64,000 nucleotides of DNA from positions 2,418,001-2,482,000 of the forward strand of contig OY751486.1 of the NCBI GenBank assembly GCA_963565915.1, given 5' to 3'. The position numbers were made by a program, and so were the translations under genes. Source of the stretch: Entoloma clypeatum. Its lineage: Eukaryota > Basidiomycota > Agaricomycetes > Agaricales > Entolomataceae. Below, piece by piece: positions 15,272-31,379 of this stretch (positions are counted from its first letter, which is position 1; the number at the start of each line of letters is the position of its first letter). Below the pieces are notes generated by a model. That model ran no database searches. It was not told where the DNA came from and saw nothing but the letters and a program-made list of their open reading frames with translations.

Positions 15272-18200
15272 ATGTCTACCTCTCGCTCTGCTCTTGACAT
15301 CATCACCCCCTTTGACGGCATCGACTACCAAAGCTGGGCCGAAAAAATGAAGTCCTACCTCCTCCATCAAGGAGTCTGGCGCCTTGTTTCTGGCGACATC
15401 CTCCGCCCTGTCATCGCCGACTTCACCACCATGGTCTCCACCCCTGGGGCCACTGCTGCCGCTCCCCCTGTGCTGACTACCACGATCGACCAGCCCGGCT
15501 TCCGTAAGGAAGAAAAAGCCTGGATCAGGGACGACGACGTAGCTCTCGGGGCGATACGCCTGAAGGTCTCTGAGGCAATCAGACGCCATATCAAGGACAG
15601 CACCTCAGCACTTAACGCGTGGAAAACGCTAAAGGATGCCTACTCCAAGGTATCCCCAGCTGTCATCTTCGGCGACTTCAAGACCGCCGCCACCTTCAAA
15701 CTGTCTGGACGCGACCCCGTGCCTGAAATTGAACGCCTGGGGTCTCTTTTCGCCCGGCTCGCCGACTCTAACTTTATCGTCCCCGATCTGATGCAGGCAA
15801 TGGTCCTGGCCAATGTGATTCCCGACGCCTGGTCGTCACTCTCCACCGCCCTCTTCCAGGTCTATGACGCCGACAATTTCACCTACAAAGCCGTCGCCGA
15901 AAGCATCATCTCTGAATACAGGCGCAAGTATTCGGTCAGGTCTACTTGTACGTCCAATGAGCAGGCCCGGAAATTTTCCAGGACAAAGCGAAAGGGGCAG
16001 GACCCCAAATGGGAAAGGCAGCAAAAGCCGAGTACCTCGCAGAACGATGCTGACGAGCAGCCTAACTCGGCCGATCCAAGTACCGCTTCTGAGAAGAAGG
16101 GAAAGGGACGCTGGCGCAATCAGAAGAAAAGCGCTAACAATGCGGACAACATGTCCGACCATGTGGAAGAAACAGTTGAGTTTGTTGCTCCTGCCATTCA
16201 CTTCCCCCCTCTTCCGGCACCGTCCTTCACCACCGTCACTGGTCACGGGAAAACGACAAGTACCGCACAGCCCGATTCCGAAAAAATGCAGTCGCTTCTG
16301 CAGCGCATGAACCCCCCTCCGTCACAGTACACGGGGCTTCCTTCTGGAAAACCATCCGTGTGGAAGAAGAATGACCATGTCCGCAAACTCACGCGCGGCA
16401 TTGGTGCTCGCCCCTCAGGGTCAAACCTTCGCATTCTGGATACAATTATCCCAGAAGAAGACGAAAGACCGTCCAAGCAGCGTCGAGTTACTCCGCCGCT
16501 GGACCAAACCCTTAGGATGATGGACATAGACCATCAAAGCGAGCGGATGGGGCCGGAACAATTCGAAGATGGGCTGATCGAACTTGACGGTTCGTCACAA
16601 TCTTCTCTCAAACTTAAACAAATGGGAAACACTAATAATCACGCACAGACGTTTGAATATATATTAGCTAGTACCGATGCAGACAGTATAGATCTCTTTA
16701 GTGATGATCTGTACAAAAAATATATCAAACATTTCGCGTCCTGCACACACTGCAAAGAGAGAGAACACGCTCAGTGGATCTTATATTCCGGCGCATCATT
16801 ACACTTTACCCATGAGTTTAAAGACTTCGCGTACTACAGGCCTCTCAAGGCTAAGCGATTTGTCCAAACAGCTGCAAAGGGAAAGAAACTGGAAATTCTC
16901 GGAGTTGGGGCCGTTCCAGTACGGCATACCCTAAATGGGGAAGTAAAAACCCATCTTCTCCGACCTGTATTCTACATTCCGGACATGGACACACGCCTAT
17001 TGTCCCTAGGCGTCTTCCTTAATCACAGTTACAAAGTAGACGGAATGCGTGGAGAAATCAACATCTCCAAAGGACAGAACAAAATACAGTTCTCGCCTCA
17101 CATTCTCGGACAAACCATTTATTGGTTAGACACTGAAATACGCTATGACCAAATCCACGCGATCTCTAGCGAAATCACTGTCGAAACCTGGCATAAACGC
17201 CTTGGCCACCCAAATGACCAGGCGCTCAATAAGATTCCCACCAGTACCAAAGGAGTACCCAAAACGTTAGTACATGAGAAATCACAGGAAAGCTGCACGG
17301 GGTGTCTAAAAGGGAAAATGCCGAATTAATCTTATCCTAACTCGATGACGAGGGCTGTCAAACCCTTCGATTTGATCCATTCGGATTTGAAGCAGATATC
17401 CACGGCATCGTACCATAAGTACAAATATTTCCTTACCTTTTTGGATGATTTTTCATCCCATGTCTGGGTCGTCTTGCTTAGGAAAAAGTCAGGCGCCATC
17501 ACCGCGCTGAAACAATTCCTTGCGATGATCCAGAATCAATTTGCCGCCACCCCTAAAAAATGGCGGGTTGATGGAGGTGGAGAATTTGATGAATACAAGG
17601 ATGTACTTGCCAATCATGGAATTCTGATCGACGTCACACTCCCATATCAGCATCAGCAGAATGGTAGAGCAGAACGGATAAATCGAACTCTGTGGGAAAA
17701 ATCTCAGGCATTACGCTTCGACGCATGCTTACCACCTATGTGGTGGGAATTCTGCCTTGAACATGCAGCATTTCTCTACAACAGAACCCCCATGCAGCGT
17801 CTTGAATGGAAAACCCCTCACTTCAAGGTGACCAATGAGATCCCCGACATGTCCAGCATCAGAGTATTTGGATGTCAGGCATATGTATATATCCCAAAGG
17901 AGAAACGTAGGAACTCCCTGGAATCAAGATCCCGATTGATGATTTATCTCGGATCGAAACCAGGGGTCAAAGGATACCGCTTCATGGATCCTGAGACCAA
18001 CACGATTTTCATGGGCGGGAAAGCTATCTTTGATGAAAGCAAGTACCCTAGATGCCACATCGACCCGTTGCCAGAAAACCACCCAGAAATGGAAGACCCA
18101 GAGCCGGCTGATGAGTTTGAGGATCTCATTCCCGGCAGCAATGACGACGATAGTCACAACGAAACACCTCATGACCCAGTTCCCATTGAACAGGATCAAC

Positions 18201-19996
18201 CTGAATCAGACAACAAACTGCCTGCCAGTGAGCCTGATGACGAACCACGAGTACCCACTCCGGAACCCGAGCAAGTACCAGATCGACCGATCAGGGAACG
18301 ACGAGTTCGGAAGATGCCAGGAAGCATCTATGGGGAAGACACTCCAGCGTCTGATCTTGAAAAATTAGATCGAAGACGGAGATTGGGCGGTCAAACGGCA
18401 TGGATGAATGACCTCCTGATGGAGGCAATATCAGTCCAAGTTGGCATCGTTGAAATGTCCCATAAAGACATATACCCTCTTCCAAATAAAGAAGACTGGT
18501 ATGCGGCTGAACGTAAAGAGCTAGACATGCTCAAACACCGCGGGGTGATCACGGAGCTAGTACCCCTGCCTGCAGGAAGGAAAGCTCTAAGGAACAAATG
18601 GGTTTACAACGAAAAGTCCGACGGGCGTCTGAAAGCACGCCTCGTCGCAAAAGGCTTTTCACAGGTAGAAGGGATTGACTTTGATCAGATCTTCTCACCA
18701 GTCGTAAGATATGAAACCGTCCGACTAATACTGGCATTGACAGCCCTTGAAGGGTGGTTCATGACAATTTTGGACGTCTCATCAGCCTTCCTCTATGGAA
18801 CGCTCCGTGAAGTCATTTACATGCGACAACCTGAGGGCTACATAGTAAAAGGGAAAGAACACCTCGTGTACCAACTATTCAAAGCTCTATATGGACTTAA
18901 GCAGGCCGCATTAGCCTGGTGGAGGGAACTTGATTCCTCCATGAAAAAGCTCGGCTTTGTCCGGCTTCACTCCGATGCGGGAGTGTTCATTCACAAAAGT
19001 ACCAACGGGGAAATTGTAATCGCCGTCATCTATGTTGACGACTCTGCTTTTCTCGGCACAAACCAGGAATATACGCTAGAGAAAAAGAAGGCCTTCATGA
19101 CCACATGGGAATGTAGGGACCTAGGGCACCTTGTGCCTGATGGGGAACCGAAAGAATTTCTCTCTATCCAAATAAGGCAACGTGGGAAACGTATCTTCAT
19201 CGATCAAGTACCTTACCTTGAGAAAATACTCGAACGAATGGGGATGAGCGAATCTAACGCCACCCATACCCCACTTCCTATGGGCTACAAACCCATGATG
19301 TCCGAAGATGAACCCAATGCAGAACTTCAATCAAAGTACCAATCCATCATCGGATCACTTCTATATCTGATGATTGGAACAAGGCCAGACATCTGCTTTG
19401 CCATGATTAAAATGTCACAGTTTTCCGCAAATCCCACCAAACGCCACTTAGAAGTGGCTAGGGATATTTGCAGGTATCTGAAGGCGACAAAAAATTACGC
19501 AATCATGTATGATGGCGACTCAGGGAAAGGAATCTATGCATTCACAGACTCCGACTGGGCATCAGATGAAAACACGAGGAGGTCTACCACTGGCTTCTTC
19601 ATATCACTGGCGTCTGGAGCAGTGACATGGGTATCATCGGCGCAAAAGACCATCGCCCTCTCTTCCACAGAAGCAGAGTATATGGCGTTATCAGACTGCA
19701 GTCGCGCAGCAACATGGCTGAGAAGCATGCTTGCCGAACTTGGAATGCAGATCGGATCAGTACCGATCTACGGAGATAACAACGGCTCCGTCTTTATCAC
19801 ATCCAACCCTGTAACTGAGAAGTGATCCAAGCACATTGACGTGCGATTCCACTTCGTCAGAGAAAAAGTCTCCGAAGGGATAATTACGGTCGAATTCATT
19901 GAAGGAGTGAACAACCCTGCAGACCTTTTAACTAAGAATCTGGGAAAAATCCTCTTTTCCAAGTTTATCCCGTACTTCGGATTGATAAAAAACTAG
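15272..19996 (+). pseudogene. Copia-1 Gag-Pol polyprotein (Gag-protease-integrase-RT-RNase H), two nonsense codons
   Basis: A single frame of about 1,574 codons; ATG 15272 is chosen because Copia-2 starts at the equivalent codon. Order is copia-type: Gag (from FDGIDYQSWAEKMKSYLL), protease (WILYSGAS, 16775), integrase (zinc part WHKRLGHP...CTGCLKG, catalytic D in HSDLK, DGGGEF, and E in GRAERINRTL), reverse transcriptase (ARLVAKGFSQ, YVDD at about 19033), RNase H (TDSDWASDE, SSTEAEY). TAA at 17327-17329 cuts integrase after its zinc part and TGA at 19823-19825 removes the last 57 residues. The protease catalytic Asp codon GAT is TAT (Tyr) at 16784-16786. All three lesions are single-base changes, so the copy was functional until recently. 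Confidence 0.93.
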
Positions 19997-20368: not shown

Positions 20369-21275
20369 GTTTTTGCCACAGCCCTTTGCGAAATGTCGTC
20401 AAGCGAAGGCATATCTCGAAAAGGCAGGCAGGGCACAACTTCTTCCCCGTCACCATGTCCTGTGAAAAGAGGCGTGTTGTACGAAGAAGATCGGATGAGT
20501 CCATACATTTCTCAGCCAGTTGTTTCAACATCTCTGGTGAGCAACATGACACCCATGTGCAGCCATTCATCGAAATAGTGAGATCAAGGTCCTCCGGGAT
20601 ACGGCGAAGGCGTTTCTGTCCCTTGATAAGACAGAGAAGGTCTTCTCCACTTAAGAGTATCCATCAAGTGGATGGCTGTCCATAGTCAGGGACGTCGGTG
20701 GAGTCGCATATTTCATCCCAATCGTCGTAGATTGAGAGTCTCAATAGGTGGTAAAAAGCGGCAGGAAGGATGATGGGCAGGTCGCACTCGCGAGCAAGAT
20801 GGATGGCACCAGTAGGTTCAGGGTACATGTTGTCAAGTTGATGGGTATTATAGTGGATATTTTGGTAGAGTTGTTCTTGGAGGGCACGCCTTCGGCCCTC
20901 AACATAAAGCTCAAGGGCATCCCATTCGAACAAGGTGGATGGCCATCCATGTTTGACATAAGACACGAGGTGGAGATGAATGCCTTCCATGGAGTACTTG
21001 TCGGTTAGTCTCAGGATGTGAAGAAGAGGTTGCAAAGAGACGGGGGCGAGGACATGGGGGTCATGTTGCAAATTGCTGGGCGAAGTTAGCACGGCGTCTT
21101 GGGAATGACAGACCCGACTTACATGTCATGATATATGAATCGCAGTAATGACTCGACTTGGTCAGCAGAATCCTCCATGACAAGCACAGGTGCCCCTTCA
21201 TACTCCTCGTCGGGTGTGGCACCACTGAACATGTTTCCGAGGACAGGAGAGAGTTTGGAAAGGAGTGATTGGTGG

Positions 21276-21946
21276 TGTTATATCCGTCTCCGAATCTCCG
21301 ATCCACTCCGATAGTCCTCCGACATTCCGGACATCTGTTACCTCCGCATCTCCGCACGTTGCCATCGTGCATTTCATATTCTACTTATGCATCGCCTTTT
21401 TCGCATGGTCCGTTGACCGACATCTCCGATGTTCGTTACAGTCGCTGGCAACTTACGCCACAACTCTGGACCTACTCCGACCATCTCCGTAAAGTAATAT
21501 CATTTAGGTATTTAAGCTCGTACCATACCTGTAGTTCCTCAGTTCGAATATCAACAAAGTTCACTCCTCCACTCCCTGTTCATGCCAGAGATCCTCGCTG
21601 TGGTACAATACGCCGACGACATCCTCATCTACTGCTCTTCCTCCATCGTTACCCTTCGACGAGCTCAGTACTGTGTCCGAGTCACAACTCCGACGTCGTC
21701 CGACCATTTCCACGTCAACATGTCCCTCACCGAGATCTTTCCGAGGACCTCCGCACCTCCGACCTCTTCTCTGACCTCCTGAAATTGGGACACCTTATCC
21801 AACAAACGGCGGCGCAACACATACATTGAAGCCACGTCCCTCCCCTTTGTCGTTCCTCCGCATTTCCGGAGTTCCGCTCCGGTCTCAGTCCTACGTCCGA
21901 CCTCCGACGGACTCCGACAAAGCTCCGACTTTTCACCTACTTAACA
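21276..21946 (+). repeat. Gypsy-1 5' LTR (671 bp)
   Basis: TG...CA ends; contains TATTTAAG at about 21510, a possible TATA-like box. Confidence 0.95.
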
Positions 21947-21986
21947 GTATATTTGAACTCAAACCGTTTTTGGATTCCTGCTAGTC

Positions 21987-23165
21987 ATGGCACTCCGAAA
22001 CACCAAGACAGCAAAAGCCGCAGAAGCTGGCACTTCTAGGCAACAGGTTCTACAAAATGTCGAACAACGTTTAACAGAACTATCCCCCGTAACTCCCACT
22101 ACTCCGACACCTCTGGGTTTTCAGCCCATCACACCTCCGCATAATATTCCGATCCCCACTTCCCCCATAGAATCCGCACCCCCGTCTCCTCAGAATATTT
22201 TCGGCCCACAAGCCCTTGCGGATGCTTTCCTCTTAATGACCAATGAACTCAAACGCAGCAAAGGTCACAAGCATCATAAAAAGGCTAAGGATCCGGACAC
22301 CTTCGACGGTTCCGATCCCCGAAAACTGAACCAGTTCATCCTCCAATGCACATTGTTCTTCCGCGACAACTCTGAGTATGACGATGACTCTGCCAAAATC
22401 ACTCTCGCCATCTCTTTCCTCCGAGGCACAGCTCTCGATTATTTCGAGCATTTCATCATCGAACCAGACCCGGACAACCCCCCGGACTGGCACGAAGATT
22501 GGTCCGCATTCCTCCGCACGCTCCGCACAGAATTCGGGGTCATTGACCCCGTTGCGGATGCTGCCGACTCTCTGGACAATCTCAAAATGCGCGAAAATCA
22601 ACATATTCTCAAGTATAATATTGAGTTCACATGCCTTGCTGCCAAAATGCACTGGGACAGCTCTGCCCTGCATCACCGGTACTACTCCGGGTTGGCGGAG
22701 CGGATTAAAGATGTCCTTGGGACTCAAGCAAAGCCAAGCACGTTACCAGCACTTAGGGAGCTAGCACAGACTATTGATGCTCGCCACTGGGAACGTCATC
22801 GCGAGAAATCCCGCTCCGACAAATCCGCATCCAAATCCGACAAATCCGCATCCAAATCCGACAAATCCGAAGCTAAAACCCCCTCCGCAAACTCCGATAA
22901 AAACTCCAAAGCCAAACCGCAGACACAGAACCAGGGCAAACAGTCGAAGCCTTCCTCCGCTCCCAAGTCCGACATCTCCGACAAACTCGGAAAAGACGGA
23001 AAGCTAACTCCGGAGGAACGCAAACGCCGTTTTGACAACAACCTCTGTATGTTTTGTGGCAAAGCTGGACACGTCGCGAAAGATTGCCTGAAGTCTTCGT
23101 CCTCCGCCTCTAAGGCTAAGGCGCGCGCTGCCCAAGCCAAGACCACGGACGAAACAAAAAATTAG
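21987..23165 (+). CDS. Gypsy-1 Gag
   Basis: A 392-residue capsid/nucleocapsid protein, apparently intact. Residues about 95-260 are the retrotransposon Gag domain (FDGSDPRKLNQFI, FLRGTALDYFEH). Then a low-complexity run repeats KSDKSASK, and a single CX2CX4HX4C zinc knuckle (CMFCGKAGHVAKDC) lies near residue 351. The start is the first ATG 41 bp after the 5' LTR. The stop TAG directly follows the slip sequence AAAAAAT, and pol begins in the -1 frame. It would assemble particles that package the element RNA. Confidence 0.92.
   Translation: MALRNTKTAKAAEAGTSRQQVLQNVEQRLTELSPVTPTTPTPLGFQPITPPHNIPIPTSPIESAPPSPQNIFGPQALADAFLLMTNELKRSKGHKHHKKAKDPDTFDGSDPRKLNQFILQCTLFFRDNSEYDDDSAKITLAISFLRGTALDYFEHFIIEPDPDNPPDWHEDWSAFLRTLRTEFGVIDPVADAADSLDNLKMRENQHILKYNIEFTCLAAKMHWDSSALHHRYYSGLAERIKDVLGTQAKPSTLPALRELAQTIDARHWERHREKSRSDKSASKSDKSASKSDKSEAKTPSANSDKNSKAKPQTQNQGKQSKPSSAPKSDISDKLGKDGKLTPEERKRRFDNNLCMFCGKAGHVAKDCLKSSSSASKAKARAAQAKTTDETKN
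23156..23162 (+). promoter_or_regulatory. Candidate -1 ribosomal frameshift site, A AAA AAT
   Basis: Six A then T, in the correct phase for simultaneous slippage, followed at once by the gag stop TAG. The pol frame is -1 relative to gag and is open across the site through to the protease. Confidence 0.6.
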
Positions 23166-26100
23166 CAGGCAGTCCACAGGACTCTGTACGGCCTGAGGAC
23201 TGCGTTGAACCCATCCGTACTACCGCTCTACTCAACGCTTCCACTCTTTCCGATCCCAATTCCCTCTGTGTCCGACTTACATCTCCGCTTATCTCCGATT
23301 CTTCTCCGATAGCTGCCCTTGTGGACTCCGGCTCTACTCATTGTTTTATTGACTCCCGTTATGCTTCATCCTATAAACTCCCTTTCACCTCCATACCTCC
23401 GATCGAACTTAAATTATTTGACGGAACATCCAACTCCGTCATTACTCAGGTGGTTGATCTCCCTGTATACTTTTCCTCTGGTGAATATATGGCCATTACA
23501 GCCTACGTGACTCCGCTCGATTCCTCCTGTTCTATGGTTCTTGGATACAACTGGCTCACCCGCTACAATCCTATGATTGACTGGGTATTGGGCAGTATTA
23601 CTTTCCATCCACAGCTCTTGAAGGAGTCTCCGACCTTGACGTCTTCTGCCAGGTCAGCTCCGCTACCTCCGCAGACCTCTCCCGATACTCCGACCTCCGA
23701 CTCCGGCACACCCGCTGCAACTCCGGATGTTGTTCCAAATATTGCATTGATAAATGCAGCCGCATTTGTGCGCGCTTGCAAACTTCCGGGTGCCCAATCT
23801 TTCCGAATTCACCTCTCTGACCACACGATCTCCGCCCAATCTGTTTCTATGTCTGAGGAGCCTCCGGACCTCTCCCATATCCCAGAGGAATATCACGATT
23901 TTGCCGATGTTTTTAGCAAGACAAAAGCAGACACCCTCGCTCCGCGTATGACCTCCGCATCGAGTTAGAAGACGGATCGACTCCCCCTATTGGCCCTATG
24001 TACTCCATTTCACAATCCGAACTATCTGCCCTGCGAAACTTCATAGACGAACATTTGGCCATTGGTTTCATTCGCCCCTCTCGCTCTCCGCATGGCGCTC
24101 CGGTCCTCTTTGTCCGAAAGAAGGACGGTTCCCTCCGCCTGTGCGTCGACTATCGGGGCCTGAACAAAGTTACCAAGAAGGATCGATACCCTCTTCCGCT
24201 CATCTCCGACCTCCTTTCCACAGCCGGAAAAGCGCGTGTTTATACCACTCTCGATCTCCGGCATGCATACCGAAAACCGCTTTCCGCACTCGTTACAGAT
24301 CATTTGAATGGCTTGTTATGCCTTTTGGACTATCCAACGCCCCTGCCGCTTTTCAGCGATTTGTGAATGATATCTTCAGTGACCTCCTCGATGTTACAGT
24401 GGTGGTCTACCTCGATGACATTCTCATTTACTCCGACGACCCCGCCAAGCACCCCGACGATGTCAAGGAAGTTCTCCAACGTCTCCGCAAGAACGGACTT
24501 TACGTCCGCTCTGACAAGTGTGAATTTTCTGTCGACACAGTCGAATATCTTGGTTTCATCCTTTCTCCCTCTGGTCTCCGCATGTCCGAAACCAAGGTAA
24601 AGACCATTCAAGAGTGGCCTGAACCTCGAAAAGTGAAGGACGTACAGTCTTTCCTTGGATTCACAAATTTCTATCGTCGTTTCATTCACGGTTATTCGGA
24701 CATCGTTGTTCCGCTCACCCGACTCACCCGGAAGGGTACTCCGTTCTGTTTCTCCGACTCCGCACGGAGTGCGTTCAATGAGTTGAAGCTCGCTTTTACC
24801 AAAGCACCAGTCCTCACTCATTGGATTCCTGATCGACCTATTATCATCGAGACAGACGCCTCCGACTACGCACTTGGTGCTATTTTGTCCATCCGGACCT
24901 CCGACGAGGAGATACACCCAGTAGCGTTCCACTCCCACACCTTCACCGCCCCGGAACTCAACTACGACACGCACAACAAGGAGTTACTTGCTATCCATGA
25001 AGCATTCAAGGTATGGCGACATTACCTTGAAGGCTCCGCTGCTCTGATCAATGTTGTCACGGACCACAAGAACCTGGAGTACTTCGCCACTACAAGGGTT
25101 CTCACCCGCCGACAAGCCCGGTGGTCCGAGTTCCTCTCTCAGTTCAATCTCTTGATTCGCTTCCGCCCCGGACGTCTCGGTACCAAACCGGACTCTTTGA
25201 CTAGACAATGGGACGTCTATCCCAAAGAGGGGAATAGTGACTATGTGTCGGTAAATCCAAGCAACTTCCAACCAGTCTTTTCCCAAGAACAGCTGTCCGC
25301 ATCTCTCCGAGCTACGGAGTTGTTCACCCCTGTTCTCCGTGCCACAGTCATAATGGACATTGAACAGTTGCACTCCGACATCCTCCGTTCACTCCCATCC
25401 GACCCAATCTATGCCAACCATCTCAAGGAGCCCAAACTGCACTGGTCCGTAGACTCCGACGGTTTCCTCCGCCATAGTGGTCGCATTTACGTCCGCAACT
25501 CCGATAACCTCTGGCTCCGCATCGTCTGCAACAAGCACGACCATATTCTCTCCGGACACCCTGGACAGAACAAGACAGTTAGTCTCATTCAACGAGATTA
25601 TACTTGGCCTGGTGTTTGAGACTTTGTCAAAAAGTACTGCAAATCCTGCACCACTTGCATGTGCTCTAAACCTCAACGCCACAAGCCCTATGGTATGCTG
25701 AAGCAACTCCCAGTTCTGAACCTTCCGTGGAACTCCATATCCATGGACTTCATCGAGACACTTCCGACCTCCGGCGGTTTTGACGCAATCCTTGTTATTG
25801 TTGACCGAATGACAAAACAAAGCATTTTTGTTCCGACTACGATCCACTGCACCTTGTTCATCCTGCATGTGTTCTCCAAGCACGGAGTACCAGAGCATGT
25901 CACCTCCGACCGAGGCCCGGAGTTTGTCTCCCGCTTTTTCCGCTCCCTCGGAAAAGCCCTCAACATGACTCTGCACTTCACCTCTGGCTACCATCCTGAA
26001 GGCGACGGTCAAACCGAACGTACCAACCAGACCTTGGAACAGTACCTCCGCATTTTCTGTAACTATCAACAGGACAACTGGTCCGAACTACTTCCACTTG

Positions 26101-26804
26101 CGGAGTTCGCGTACAACAATGCTCCGAGTGCTACGACCGGGATCTCGCCCTTCTTTGCCAATAAAGGTTATCATCCGAACCTCTCCGTCCATCCGGAGCG
26201 CGACCTCGCATCCGCCCGTGCCCGACAATTCGTCGTAGACCTGGACGAGCTTCACCAAGAACTCAAATCTACAATCCTAGAAGCTCAACGACGTTATCAA
26301 GGCCCCGCCGATCTCCGGCGTGCTCCGCCCCCTCCGCTCGAAGTAGGACAGCAAGCTTTTGTGAAGGCTAAGTTTTTCCGCACTACACGACCCTCCAAAA
26401 AGCTGTCTGAAAAGTACCTTGGCCCCTTTGACATCCTTGCCAGGAATGGTACACACTCTTACACCCTCCGACTTCCGGACACCATACGCGGTGTTCACCC
26501 CGTCTTCCACATCTCCATGCTGGAGCCATCTGTTCCAAACATCATTCCAAACCAGACAGTAACTCCGCCTCCTCCAATCAATGTTGAAGGAGAAGTGGAA
26601 TACAAAATCGCCGAAATCCTTGACACCAAACTGGATTGGCGGTGTTCTTGCAAACTGCTCTACCTAGTCCATTGGCTAGGCTATGAAGGAACCAATGAGG
26701 AACAGTCCTGGCTACCCGCCACGGAACTCAAACACGTGACGGACTTAGTCGCGGACTTCCACTCCGCGTATCCGGAGAAACCGGGCCCCTTATCACACCT
26801 ATAG
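23159..26804 (+). pseudogene. Gypsy-1 Pol (protease-RT-RNase H-integrase-chromodomain), broken
   Basis: Gypsy order of domains. Protease ALVDSGSTHCFID at about 23312; reverse transcriptase from about 23990 ([33 protein letters not shown] at about 24400); RNase H (IIIETDASDYALGA); integrase zinc part (HILSGHPGQNKT...CKSCTTC), catalytic core (MDFIETLP, SDRGPEF, DGQTERTNQTLE); chromodomain at the end (VEYKIAEILDTKL...LVHWLGYEG). Lesions: a small deletion near 23940; a deletion near 24267 removing about a dozen residues between LRHAY and TAFRTRY in the RT fingers; TGA at 25617-25619 where WPGV[R]DFVK is expected. The chromodomain suggests targeting to methylated-histone chromatin, as known for chromoviruses. 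Confidence 0.92.
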
Positions 26805-26863
26805 AAGCGCGCAAGACTCTCAAAATAATAAAAATAATGAAAAGAAACTAGAGGGGGGAGGGG

Positions 26864-27765
26864 CTACTGGGTTTTGGCCTTTTTGGCCGGCGGACCCTCA
26901 TCCTCCAACCCTTCCTCCGACTCCTCCATTTTTTCCCCTGTTTCTTCCTCCGCTTTCCTCGCCTGCTTTTTCTCCTCCTCCATTTTCTCCGCTTGCAGTT
27001 CCGCAAGCTCCCCCTCGTCCAACCCCTCGTCCTTCTCCTCGTCCTCTTCCTCGTCCTCTTCCGCACTTTTCACCTCCCCTCCGTCATCCTCCGACTCCGG
27101 AGCCGCCGCCTCCAGCAAGAAGTTCCGGTAGGCGAGGTGGTTGTTTAAAATTTGCAGCTGCCGGAGCAGCGCCCAACCGACCCTCGCCGACTGCTCCTCT
27201 CTCTCCTCCAGAGCCTCCCGGAGCTCCCGGAGCTCCTCCGCGACCCCTGTGCCGCAGCATCTTTTCGCCCCACTCGGGCCCGCGACCTCCGCGACGGCCT
27301 CCTCCGTCTTCCCCCGTTTCCGCTTCGCCCTCATCTCGCCGGGTTTCAGGCAAACCCGTTTGCCGTCTTTACACCGCTGGCATGCGGTGCCCTTCCCCTG
27401 CCTAAGGAGACTGTCAGTAAGAAAAAGAAGATGAAAAAAGCGGGTACTCACAATGCCCACTTGCACTCCACCTTCGCCTGCGCACAGGCCTGACACGCCT
27501 CCCCCCGGACCTCCGATTCCTCCGCTCCGCTCTCTGCCCTCTGTTTCCCCGCCTTCTTCGCCCTCTTCCTCTCCGCCTCCGCCTCCGCCTCTGCTTTCTT
27601 CTTCGCCTCTGCCTCCCTCGCCCTCCTCTCGGCCTCCGCCTTCTTCCTTGCCTCTGCCTCCTCCTTCTCCTTGCGTATCTGCGCCAGACAGCGCAGGAGC
27701 TCCTCTTCGGAGTTGTCTAGGTTGGCGCTGGATCGGGTGGGCTGTGTGCTCGAGCCTTGGGGCAT
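26864..27765 (-). CDS. Antisense cargo gene of Gypsy-1: Zn2Cys6 coiled-coil protein
   Basis: Two exons, 27765-27452 and 27401-26864, with a 50-bp GT-AG intron; the spliced frame is 852 nt, 283 residues. It runs opposite to pol and starts 120 bp inside the 3' LTR; the stops of pol and this gene lie 59 bp apart, tail to tail. Residues about 30-85 are a charged coiled coil of the EAEARKKAEAERR type. Then follows CQACAQAKVEC-x10-CQRCKDGKRVC, i.e. C-x2-C-x6-C-x10-C-x2-C-x6-C, the GAL4-type binuclear zinc cluster, split by the intron. After it come a KRKRGK basic patch, a leucine-rich helix, a long acidic EED tract and PPAKKAKTQ. Likely a nuclear DNA-binding protein; its target is unknown. The upstream ATG at 27858 is possible but lies against the LTR. 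Intact frame suggests selection or recent origin. Confidence 0.8.
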
Positions 27766-27884
27766 GTTGGTGGTAACTGGAAGAAACCCTTGAAGCCGCT
27801 CATCTCCGTTAAATAACCGAGACCACATGACCTTGTTTATTTTCTCGCGGTCTTCCATGGGTGTCAGACCTAAGAGGGGAATAC

Positions 27885-28597
27885 TGTTATATCCGTCTCC
27901 GAATCTCCGATCCACTCCGATAGTCCTCCGACATTCCGGACATCCGTTACCTCCGCATCTCCGCACGTTGCCATTGTGCATTTCATATTCATAACTCCAT
28001 GCCTTTATGCATTTCATATTCATATTCCCGTTTACTTATGCATCGCCTTTTTCGCATGGTCCGTTGACCGACATCTCCGATGTTCGTTACAGTCGCTGGC
28101 AACTTACGCCACAACTCCGGACCTACTCCGACCATCTCCGTAAAGTAATATCATTTAGGTATTTAAGCTCGTACCATACCTGTAGTTCCTCAGTTCGAAT
28201 ATCAACAAAGTTCACTCCTCCACTCCCTGTTCATGCCAGAGATCCTCGCTGTGGTACAATACGCCGACGACATCCTCATCTACTGCTCTTCCTCCATCGT
28301 TACCCTTCGACGAGCTCAGTACTGTGTCCGAGTCACAACTCCGACGTCGTCCGACCATTTCCACGTCAACATGTCCCTCACCGAGATCTTTCCGAGGACC
28401 TCCGCACCTCCGACCTCTTCTCTGACCTCCTGAAATTGGGACACCTTATCCAACAAACGGCGGCGCAACACATACGTTGAAGCCACGTCCCTCCCCTTTG
28501 TCGTTCCTCCGCATTTCCGGAGTTCCGCTCCGGTCTCAGTCCTACGTCCAACCTCCGATGGACTCCGACAAAGCTCCGACTTTTCACCTACTTAACA
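27885..28597 (+). repeat. Gypsy-1 3' LTR (713 bp)
   Basis: Same as the 5' LTR but with 42 extra bases near 27990-28030, a partial duplication of GCATTTCATATTCATA. Confidence 0.95.
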
Positions 28598-28815
28598 GGT
28601 GGACACGAAATACAGTGCACTCATTGAAGGTCATGGGTGCCACAAGAGCGATATTTCCGTCGGGAAAGTACAAAGATGGATGGTGAATGTAGCGAGTCTG
28701 AAATATTTGATGTGGCATGGCAACAGGAAGCGTGGGAAATGGAATGATTGAAAACCGTTACCTGTTCGGCAACACGAGCTAGGTTGGGTTAGGTCCCGGC
28801 CCGTCCGCCGAGCAA

Positions 28816-29310
28816 AATGTTAGAATCTAGTCACAATTAGTCACATCGTGATCCTGTGAAATCAGCATGACACATTCTTTGTTTGATCACTTAGGTTAGA
28901 CAGTAGAGATCAACAAGGGGGGAGCGGAACGGGAATCCCAGACCTGGGGTGGGAGGGGATGTGGGGGACCGACTCTGGCTGACCTCGGATCTTGTCACAT
29001 GGTCTGAGCGCATCCCTCTCAATGGCACCCCGGCTCTGGGTTATATTTAGTTTCTTGGATTCCTTTCTTAGCAGGTTTCGGTTATATTGGGTCCTCTGGT
29101 CAGCCATGACAAAGTAGTATAAAAGGGATGTAGTATGTAGTATGGAATCATCATCTCGGGTTCCTCTCATTTTTCTTGTGCCCACGCTCTCTCACTTCTC
29201 TCGACGCGCACTTGCCGCCCGTGGTCCGGACGCCATATAACTGGAGCCCACCGTGAGTCGAGACGAACATTGAGGAGAGCCCTGCCGCCGCTGCTGCCGA
29301 TGCCAACCTC
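28816..29310 (+). repeat. Possible 5' LTR and leader of the 29.3-kb Gypsy remnant
   Basis: TGTTAGAATCTAG at 28816 looks like an LTR start, GTATAAAAG at 29117 like a TATA box, and CTGGAGCCCACCGTGAG at 29239 like a primer site next to an LTR end. No second LTR copy is in the window to prove it. It may have cut off the 5' end of the BTB gene. Confidence 0.35.
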
Positions 29311-30225
29311 GCCGTGTACTCGCGCACTGGATCGGGTACCACTCATGGTGGTCAGGGCAAGGCAATGGAGATCGACAAAGCAGGAGTAGCCCGTTGCTAC
29401 AACTGTCAGCACTTCGGTCACCTTGCCAAGGACTGCAGCACTCCAAAAAAGAAAGATGGTCGCAAGTGTTTCACCTGCAATCAAGAAGGCCATATTGCGC
29501 GCAACTGCCACAAGCCAAAGAAGAACTTTGGAAGGGTCAGGAAGGTGTCTGATGAAGATGCCGAGAATGATGAAACAATCTTAGAAGCCGACGAGAAGGA
29601 TTTTCCCCGAAGGGTCCAATTAAATGATGCTAAGTCGCGACCCTTATTTATCAAACAGACTCGCTTGCCCTGTATGACTGCAGACAATAGAACCTATGTC
29701 ATCCCTGCCGAGCAAGCCGTTGCATCGACTAAGATTGTGAAAGAAGACAAACCCCCAAAACGACGAGAAATCAGACTACTAGCCCAGCTCAAAACACAAT
29801 GAGGACCAAAGGTCATTTGACCTGAAGTTGATAGCAGATGTGAACGCACATGTATCCATCCCAGAATAGTACATGAACAAAACCTCCCCACACAAGGGAT
29901 ACAGCCCATAGCAATCCTAAATGCAGATGGATCGCCAAATCGACAGCAAAAAGCGAACCGACTTGCTGAAGTCAAGCTGGACTTGGGAGTGCATCAGGAA
30001 ACCATGGAAGCAATCATACAGACAAGGCCGGGCCAATATCGTGGCAAAGTGTCTCATGAACACTTGCCAGGCCTGCACAGTGGTTGGGGACAAGATTCTC
30101 CCCAAGGCGTATCCCAAAACACTATGCCCTTCTACTTGAAAGGCGTAATTGAAGATAATGCCGACTATGGGGTTCAATCCCCCAGGCCGCGCATGGTGAA
30201 TAAGGAACTTCACCATTTCTGACGT
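29311..30225 (+). pseudogene. Gypsy gag tail and protease remnant
   Basis: 29314-29802 encodes the C-terminal part of a Gag with two CX2CX4HX4C knuckles (CYNCQHFGHLAKDC, CFTCNQEGHIARNC) and a basic linker. After the stop, other frames read FDLKLIADVNAHVSIP, IVHEQNLPTQGIQPIA, NADGSPNRQQK and LDLGVHQETM, which match the region after the catalytic motif of Gypsy proteases. The usual DSG aspartate motif is not recognisable. No RT follows. The Gag N-terminus is also missing, so this is an internally deleted fragment of a family different from Gypsy-1 to -3. Confidence 0.75.
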
Positions 30226-30920: not shown

Positions 30921-31379
30921 ATGTCGGCAACCGATTTTCAAAAGGAGATGGAGGCGCTGCAGGCTAAGCTCGCGGAGGTGGAGGCGAAGAAGCGAGCAGC
31001 GGAGGAGGAGGCTGCAAGGAAGGCTGAGGAGGAGCGGAGAGCGGAGAAAGAGAGGGCTGCAGAGGCGGCGCGGTTAGCAGAGGAGATGCGGGTAGCGGAG
31101 GAGATGCATCAGGCGTCGGAGCTGGCGGCTCAGAAAAGGGCCGATGAAGTGGCCGCTGCGCAAGGCGCGTCGAGCAAGGGGTCGGGGGGGGCGCAGGCAG
31201 AGAAGAAGAAGAAGGTGACGAAGAAAAGAAAGGTAGAGGAGGTGACGGCGACGGTCGGAGAGGGGTCGGGAGTCAGGGTCGGGGTCGGCACCTGTGATAG
31301 GTGCATTGTGAAGGGCGTCAAATGCGAACGCGATGAGTAAGTTCTTCTTTGGTTCATCTCTTCTGTTTTAACACACAGG
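30921..31379 (+). pseudogene. Second antisense coiled-coil zinc-cluster gene, next to the Gypsy-1-like LTR
   Basis: ATG 30921 opens a 139-codon frame to 31340. Residues 5-75 are a charged coiled coil (EAKKRAAEEEAARKAEEERR type), then a KKKKVTKKRK basic patch, and CDRCIVKGVKC, the first half (C-x2-C-x6-C) of a Zn2Cys6 cluster. A GTAAGT donor at about 31338 and an acceptor at 31379 bound a likely 42-bp intron in the same place as in the Gypsy-1 gene. Beyond it one frame reads GDGKKRDKICRKRR, which has one cysteine in a suitable place but is out of phase and lacks the others, so the second half seems decayed. Position relative to the LTR (165 bp) and direction match the Gypsy-1 cargo gene. The pol part of this element is gone. 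Confidence 0.65.

Follow-up and report, generated by a model that had tools for sequence, protein, structure and literature searches.

Among the described systems closest to the locus reported here, HBZ of HTLV-1 is spliced and encodes a bZIP protein, and VANDAL, the Arabidopsis element encoding VANC, is a DNA transposon. That LTR retrotransposons can contain antisense genes has long been described, their functions being undetermined (PMC7264820), and the antisense TRP28 proteins of Retand elements are predicted DNA binders (PMC11963269). The Botrytis cinerea element Boty (BcGypsy1), a Gypsy element with a chromodomain, carries the antisense extra gene brtn (PMC7264820, PMC8365987, PMC4227169), and a Monilinia transcript is reported to be similar to BRTN and to truncated Pol (PMC5987419). 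Fungal Gypsy elements were thus known to carry an antisense gene before, in the form of brtn of Boty. This narrows the novelty proposed by an earlier reading of the DNA from its letters alone (the sequence-only reading), which knew of no fungal case with a Zn2Cys6 protein; as to the Zn2Cys6 part, no such gene in a retrotransposon was found among the listed titles and abstract beginnings, largely of open literature. The Morchella report PMC6164635, considered as a precedent, only counts both Zn2Cys6 and Gypsy.

Within the 64,000-nucleotide stretch of Entoloma clypeatum DNA that was analysed (the window), we delineated an LTR retrotransposon at 21276–28597 with a 5-bp target duplication flanking both ends (Table 1). 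Its LTRs differ at 4 of 566 plus 2 of 106 aligned bases, and a 42-bp stretch of the 3' LTR is missing from the 5' LTR. Pfam analysis of pol yielded RVP_2, RVT_1, RT_RNaseH, Integrase_H2C2 and SH3_Tf2-1 over their cut-offs and an rve core of 31.3 bits against a cut-off of 32.6, in the order protease, RT, RNase H and integrase. The chromodomain-like end behind the integrase scored 21.2 bits in the window copy (cut-off 25.1) and 32.0 bits, over the cut-off, in a second family, termed B. Judged by its LTR pair, target duplication and pol domain order, the window element is a chromovirus-like Ty3/Gypsy LTR retrotransposon. Comparison with the open pol of a relative confirmed the three breaks that had been noted in this copy: the reading frame changes twice and is interrupted by one in-frame stop. 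Other copies share the overlapping frame change between gag and pol. The same window contains a Copia-type pol (17330–19825) whose open frame spans 831 aa and, just past the Gypsy element, a frame resembling gag that has two CCHC knuckles (29257–29802).

Between pol and the 3' LTR, the two-exon antisense gene proposed by the sequence-only reading was borne out, with its ATG at 27765, a stop ending at 26864 and a product of 283 aa once the 50-nt intron is spliced out. Splicing unites the cysteines 91, 94, 101, 112, 115 and 122 in exactly the spacing claimed, C-x2-C-x6-C-x10-C-x2-C-x6-C, and the coil and acidic tail foreseen beside the cluster were recovered as a charged coil-like stretch preceding it (coil and helix assigned by eye) and an acidic stretch behind it with a net charge of −19 over residues 201–240. 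Since the whole gene lies past the end of pol at 26804, a chance open frame opposite the coding strand of pol is ruled out.

Table 1 Features of the window element and of the neighbouring family B fragment.
Feature	Position	Strand	Basis or remark
5' target-site duplication GGTGG	21271..21275	.	repeated at 28598-28602
5' LTR (TGTTATA...TTAACA)	21276..21946	+	aligned with 3' LTR
gag open frame, DUF4939-like, zinc knuckle	21957..23165	+	both matches below Pfam cut-offs
pol: protease, RT, RNase H, integrase, chromodomain-like end	23120..26804	+	Pfam; window copy broken
Antisense gene exon 2 (Cys4-Cys6, basic and helix-like stretches, acidic tail, KK-rich end)	26864..27401	-	
Intron, 50 nt, GTGAGT...CTGAC...TTAG, phase 2	27402..27451	-	GT and TTAG in 41/41 copies
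Antisense gene exon 1 (coil-like stretch, Cys1-Cys3)	27452..27765	-	splice model, copies
3' LTR, mostly sense-oriented CTCCG/TCCGA sites, TATTTAAG box at LTR position 276	27885..28597	+	
3' target-site duplication GGTGG	28598..28602	.	partner of 21271-21275
Exon 1 of homologous gene, family B	30921..31336	+	related protein; belongs to second, truncated element

We searched the genome (60.1 Mb, 20 contigs) for further copies of this family, termed A. DNA searches returned at least 40 places including the window, the other 39 at 88–97% identity (best 40 of 148 candidates), and protein searches at least 155 match rows (137 of 302 candidates scored), which are often exon pieces or fragments and hence give no copy count; together they rule out a single-copy curiosity. 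The sample analysed comprised 40 fetched copies, 20 long ones representing the best DNA matches and 20 more divergent gene-only ones, giving 41 with the window. The antisense frame is more than a chance feature, as the spliced frame is intact in 30 of the 41 copies, all 41 retain an intron of the form GT...TTAG (46–59 nt), and distinct indels of intact copies relative to the window are multiples of three in 14 of 16 cases within the exons (4 of 11 within the intron). In 40 of 41 copies, a branch-like CTRAY lies ahead of the acceptor. The sequence-only reading had also noted that the gene stays open while pol of the same copy is broken; as a proof of function we dropped this: pol is open in 8 and the antisense gene in 20 of the 21 long copies, yet target size alone leads to an expected gene-intact fraction of 0.80, and the copies were picked by gene similarity. 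The openness of gene versus pol is no evidence by itself.

Selection in family A was analysed on 28 distinct intact sequences, leaving out 11 broken copies and 2 duplicates. Eight cysteines are invariant among them, the six of the cluster and those at 153–154. The dN/dS was 0.31 for 223 pairs with dS ≥ 0.1 and 0.36 for 155 closer pairs. For the divergent pairs, regional values were 0.23 for the N-terminus, 0.20 for the coil, 0.15 for the zinc cluster, 0.21 for the basic stretch, 0.40 for the helix and 0.70 for the acidic tail, and the closer pairs, where short regions are noisy on few changes, gave 1.70 for the N-terminus, 0.58 for the zinc cluster and 1.35 for the helix. In a control redealing the changes, the observed nonsynonymous changes were fewer than the shuffled ones in 10 of 10 divergent comparisons with the window (0–7 of 200 shuffles as low); for 17 close comparisons, 5 to 134 of 200 shuffles were as low, so that most of these are not significant.

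Homologous genes were found in two further families. Behind the family B exon 1 listed in Table 1, the zinc-cluster exon 2 was not found in the window; genome-wide, family B gave 159 match rows (exon pieces and fragments), and 13 of 20 fetched loci contain the complete gene. Its intron is in phase 2, 48–56 nt long and placed four codons past Cys3, the same as in family A, its dN/dS is 0.37 (78 pairs), and the six cysteines are present in 13 of 13 distinct intact sequences. In locus L049, the antisense gene is approached from the opposite side by a B integrase whose chromodomain exceeds the threshold; a Copia element 95% identical to that of the window adjoins this B copy. By eye, the B genes of L053 and L061 seem to join exon 1 of one subtype to exon 2 of another, and the antisense gene may thus recombine between elements.

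Family E was reached via the CTCCGA motif discussed below, through three clusters on contig C1 that read like RT by eye. In 3 of 3 places, L076 (intact) and L077 (broken), both located from the arrangement in A, and a protein-search match at C1:2460840, the antisense gene lies about 2.4–2.5 kb downstream of the RT-like cluster stretch, and apart from L077 the gene is whole in all of the four fetched loci (3 of four); genome-wide, 153 match rows were obtained (exon pieces and fragments). The E intron is in phase 2, 50 nt long and five codons past Cys3, and the three modelled genes share six invariant cysteines with a dN/dS of 0.29 (3 pairs).

Families A, B and E thus have in common the position and orientation of the gene, a phase-2 intron 4–5 codons after Cys3 and a protein composed of a coil-like stretch, C-x2-C-x6-C-x8..11-C-x2-C-x6-C, a basic stretch, a helix-like stretch, an acidic tail and a KK-rich end (GPPAKKAKTQ, GPSNKKQRTK, GVSNKKQRK). 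In the fetched copies of all three, the antisense gene is conserved as a protein under purifying selection: the dN/dS values proposed as a check range from 0.29 to 0.37, the gene occurs in at least three families rather than in this copy alone, and the six cysteines, far from varying freely, are invariant in the intact copies of each. Placed in antisense orientation behind pol and before the 3' LTR and conserved as a protein, it is, as judged from the fetched copies, of the aORF-3R type. The antisense proteins are mutually 31–35% identical (A versus B 31%), whereas integrase identity between A and B is 78% (a control Gypsy lineage being 34% identical to both) and the E pol end (62 aa) is 68–71% identical to A and B, indicating that within one clade the antisense protein diverges far more rapidly than pol. 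The pieces read of two further motif-bearing families, C (L074, L078) and D (L075, L079), yielded no antisense gene. L078 contains a Copia-like gag by eye, and in family C the CTCCGA clusters lie in LTR-like stretches.

The six cysteines stand in canonical Zn2Cys6 spacing and are invariant in 28 (A), 13 (B) and 3 (E) distinct intact sequences. Zn_clus (PF00172) was the top Pfam match of the isolated cluster, with 14.9 bits (E 0.028) for A and 12.6 bits (E 0.16) for B against a cut-off of 21; the whole A protein gave no Pfam match at E ≤ 1, and no zinc-cluster PDB chain was obtained for the A cluster, the four chains at E ≤ 10 being chemokine-like peptides and a trypsin. As the PF00172 cut-off is not reached, the protein is, on its residues, Zn2Cys6-like and no GAL4-type membership is assigned; of the GAL4-type label originally given, the zinc-cluster spacing is retained, and at a Pfam score of 14.9 against 21 a GAL4-type factor is putative.

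A protein database search with A residues 86–215 gave no matches, and a profile of A and B gave two at E ≤ 1, neither significant, from Pisolithus tinctorius (E 0.25) and an unrelated-looking protein (E 0.6). Aligning the Pisolithus protein P0001 to A+B with hhalign resulted in an E-value of 7.9e-7, with the coil making up much of the match. A search with the Pisolithus protein returned 69 proteins including the query, 68 from P. tinctorius and one from P. orientalis, 11 of which are called Zn(2)-C6 fungal-type by UniRef. The six-cysteine cluster is present in 6 of 10 proteins read, and among the remaining four, one carries a fused gag-like part. Against Zn_clus, P0001 scored 13.5 bits (E 0.079), below the cut-off of 21, and none of seven Pisolithus proteins (including P0004, P0012 and P0045) matched at E ≤ 1. 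P0070 of P. tinctorius joins a gag-like part, with Retrotrans_gag below its cut-off, to the coil-like N-terminal part known from the zinc-cluster family. Antisense genes of the kind described here might explain some of the short Zn(2)-C6 proteins that fungal annotations, for example of Pisolithus, treat as ordinary genes.

Zn2Cys6 proteins are DNA binders at CGG half-sites, and we take CTCCGA to be a CGG-type site. Along the A element, TCCG occurs at 24–33 per kb on both strands together (mean 31.7), whereas the remaining window averages 5.9. The carrier exhibits dense arrays in one orientation, strongest in the LTRs, where the sense-to-antisense ratio is 14:0 in both A and B for TCCGA and 18:1 (A) and 7:0 (B) for CTCCG, and where the sites flank the TATTTAA box on both sides in both families. 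Sense TCCG and CTCCG exceed synonymous-codon shuffles (0 of 300) in the A gag, two A pol pieces and the B integrase; TCCGA in one A pol piece does not do so (49 of 300), and the reverse strand is also mildly raised. Inside the antisense gene, TCCG lies mostly on the sense strand of the element (20:7 in A, 22:2 in B), and in A the bias is largely accounted for by codon usage (z 1.9), with the excess beyond codon usage on the other strand (z 4.4). The B counts cover the LTR, integrase and gene; the 3.4 kb past the B integrase in L049, which are unlike the A gag or remaining A pol and partly Copia, are not enriched (12:10).

Genome-wide, triple CTCCGA clusters number 3190 versus 17 for the reversed pattern, the positions used being those among the matches listed. 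Two Copia frames showed no clear enrichment (highest z 2.0), and the Gypsy lineage of L069–L073, five PF17919 controls that by eye represent one lineage rather than five, gave only weak signals, based on few counts (CTCCGA in L072, for instance, 2 versus 0.3 expected, z 3.3), indicating that the motif is not a general sequence bias of the genome. L069, L070, L071 and partly L073 (C6, C8, C13) carry an extra sense ORF past pol (MSNITTSTD...), with open frames of 171–181 aa and about 120 aa from Met. The motif is confined neither to gene carriers nor to non-coding parts: coding parts are loaded too, and so is family D, where an LTR lies directly behind pol and CTCCG is enriched on both strands without an antisense gene in the pieces read. 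Family D therefore rules out CTCCGA as a private signature of gene carriers, and as E alone among the motif-picked families C, D and E carries the gene in the pieces read, the motif predicts the gene poorly across families and the link between the two is tentative. Extra conservation of the LTR motif was likewise unsupported: differences from the window amount to 1.7% at the motif versus 3.8% elsewhere before variable positions are counted once, and with variable columns counted once over 20 LTRs the motif is if anything less conserved (20 of 116 versus 70 of 597 others, p 0.13), other CG positions varying more (32 of 68).

Based on these features, the protein is most likely a nuclear regulator encoded by the element and acting on that same element, and the antisense gene is probably a functional component that contributes to the control of the element. 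The gene would be transcribed from the 3' LTR side, and its intron would outlast retrotransposition as the genomic RNA represents the opposite strand. The protein would enter the nucleus, multimerise via its coil and bind the CGG-containing CTCCGA repeats in the element DNA, those surrounding the LTR promoter first, whereby the element would stay transcribed. We give about an even chance to the proposal that the protein of this Gypsy clade binds its own CTCCGA repeats as candidate sites and keeps the element transcribed. The LTR sites on both sides of the TATTTAA box fit a trans-activator and the body-wide sites would fit a VANC-like coat; against a regulator of the own LTR stand the extent of the motif over the whole element, beyond the LTR, and its enrichment in family D without the gene. 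A wider proposition, which we put forward tentatively and rather lean against, is a fungal Gypsy clade with its own recognition system, in which a fast-evolving antisense Zn2Cys6-like protein and hundreds of mostly sense CTCCG/TCCGA sites in LTRs, gag, pol and the gene would mark element DNA and keep its expression up against silencing, family D exploiting the sites without the gene. A DNA-binding-like architecture that can be recognised, selection in three families and a candidate binding site render the role of this antisense retrotransposon gene directly testable.

The element-wide density of TCCG, well above that of the remaining window, and the sense excess over codon shuffles in gag, pol and integrase could also reflect a protein that, like the anti-silencing factor VANC, coats the chromatin of the whole element via spread motifs and wards off host silencing. 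VANC21 likewise targets dense one-orientation motifs (PMC5735166), and 31% identity of the antisense proteins against 78% of the integrases is what fast evolution of specificity would give. We nevertheless consider such a coat unlikely, as the VANC21 motifs are described as mainly non-coding and rare in other elements (PMC5735166), whereas here coding parts are loaded and family D shares the motif without the gene. Distinctly unlikely, in our view, is a self-limiting repressor, in which the protein or the antisense transcription would lower gag-pol expression and control copy number. The antisense unit is indeed convergent at the 3' end, and dsRNA from such transcripts is discussed in PMC7264820; a form acting through RNA alone would need neither a dN/dS of 0.31 nor invariant cysteines, which the protein form could accommodate.

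Still less probable is an action of the protein on the element RNA, in packaging or export, via CUCCGA in the sense RNA. Such a role would explain the strand bias of the LTR sites and the sense-biased TCCG of the antisense gene, the latter being mostly codon usage in A, where the excess over codon usage falls on the other strand. Moreover, Zn2Cys6 proteins are DNA binders, and single-orientation arrays also occur with the DNA binder VANC21 (PMC5735166). That the protein benefits the element through an effect on host genes, with the CTCCGA arrays unrelated and due to a host factor or a sequence bias of this Gypsy branch, is highly improbable, since the Copia frames and L069–L073 argue against a general genome bias, although family D with its motif and no gene in the pieces read would suit it.

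Compared with known systems, the regulator of its own element that we favour resembles the Zn(2)-C6 proteins of Pisolithus tinctorius in its coil-like start, basic stretch, acidic tail and many paralogues; the Pisolithus cluster is C-x2-C-x6-C-x12-C-x2-C-x6-C (6 of 10 read) with x12 in place of the middle x10 of A, and the Pisolithus protein, known from protein sequences alone, is only about 27% identical (E 0.25). HBZ of HTLV-1 is likewise an antisense nuclear regulator, and HTLV contains an antisense promoter within its 3' LTR (PMC7264820, PMC11963269); HBZ contains no zinc cluster, and no homology is claimed. With VANC of Arabidopsis VANDAL it would share an element-encoded protein and dense one-orientation short motifs within the element, from which the VANC21 case differs by its mainly non-coding motif, rare in other elements (PMC5735166). 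Like brtn, to which it is likened by description rather than by comparison with the BRTN sequence, the gene is an antisense extra gene in a fungal Gypsy element, with an over-threshold chromodomain in family B. With the antisense genes of plant Gypsy elements, which belong to another host kingdom and in whose descriptions the word zinc is absent from the main text (PMC7264820, PMC11963269), it shares position, orientation, presence in most copies and a suspected nuclear or DNA-binding role.
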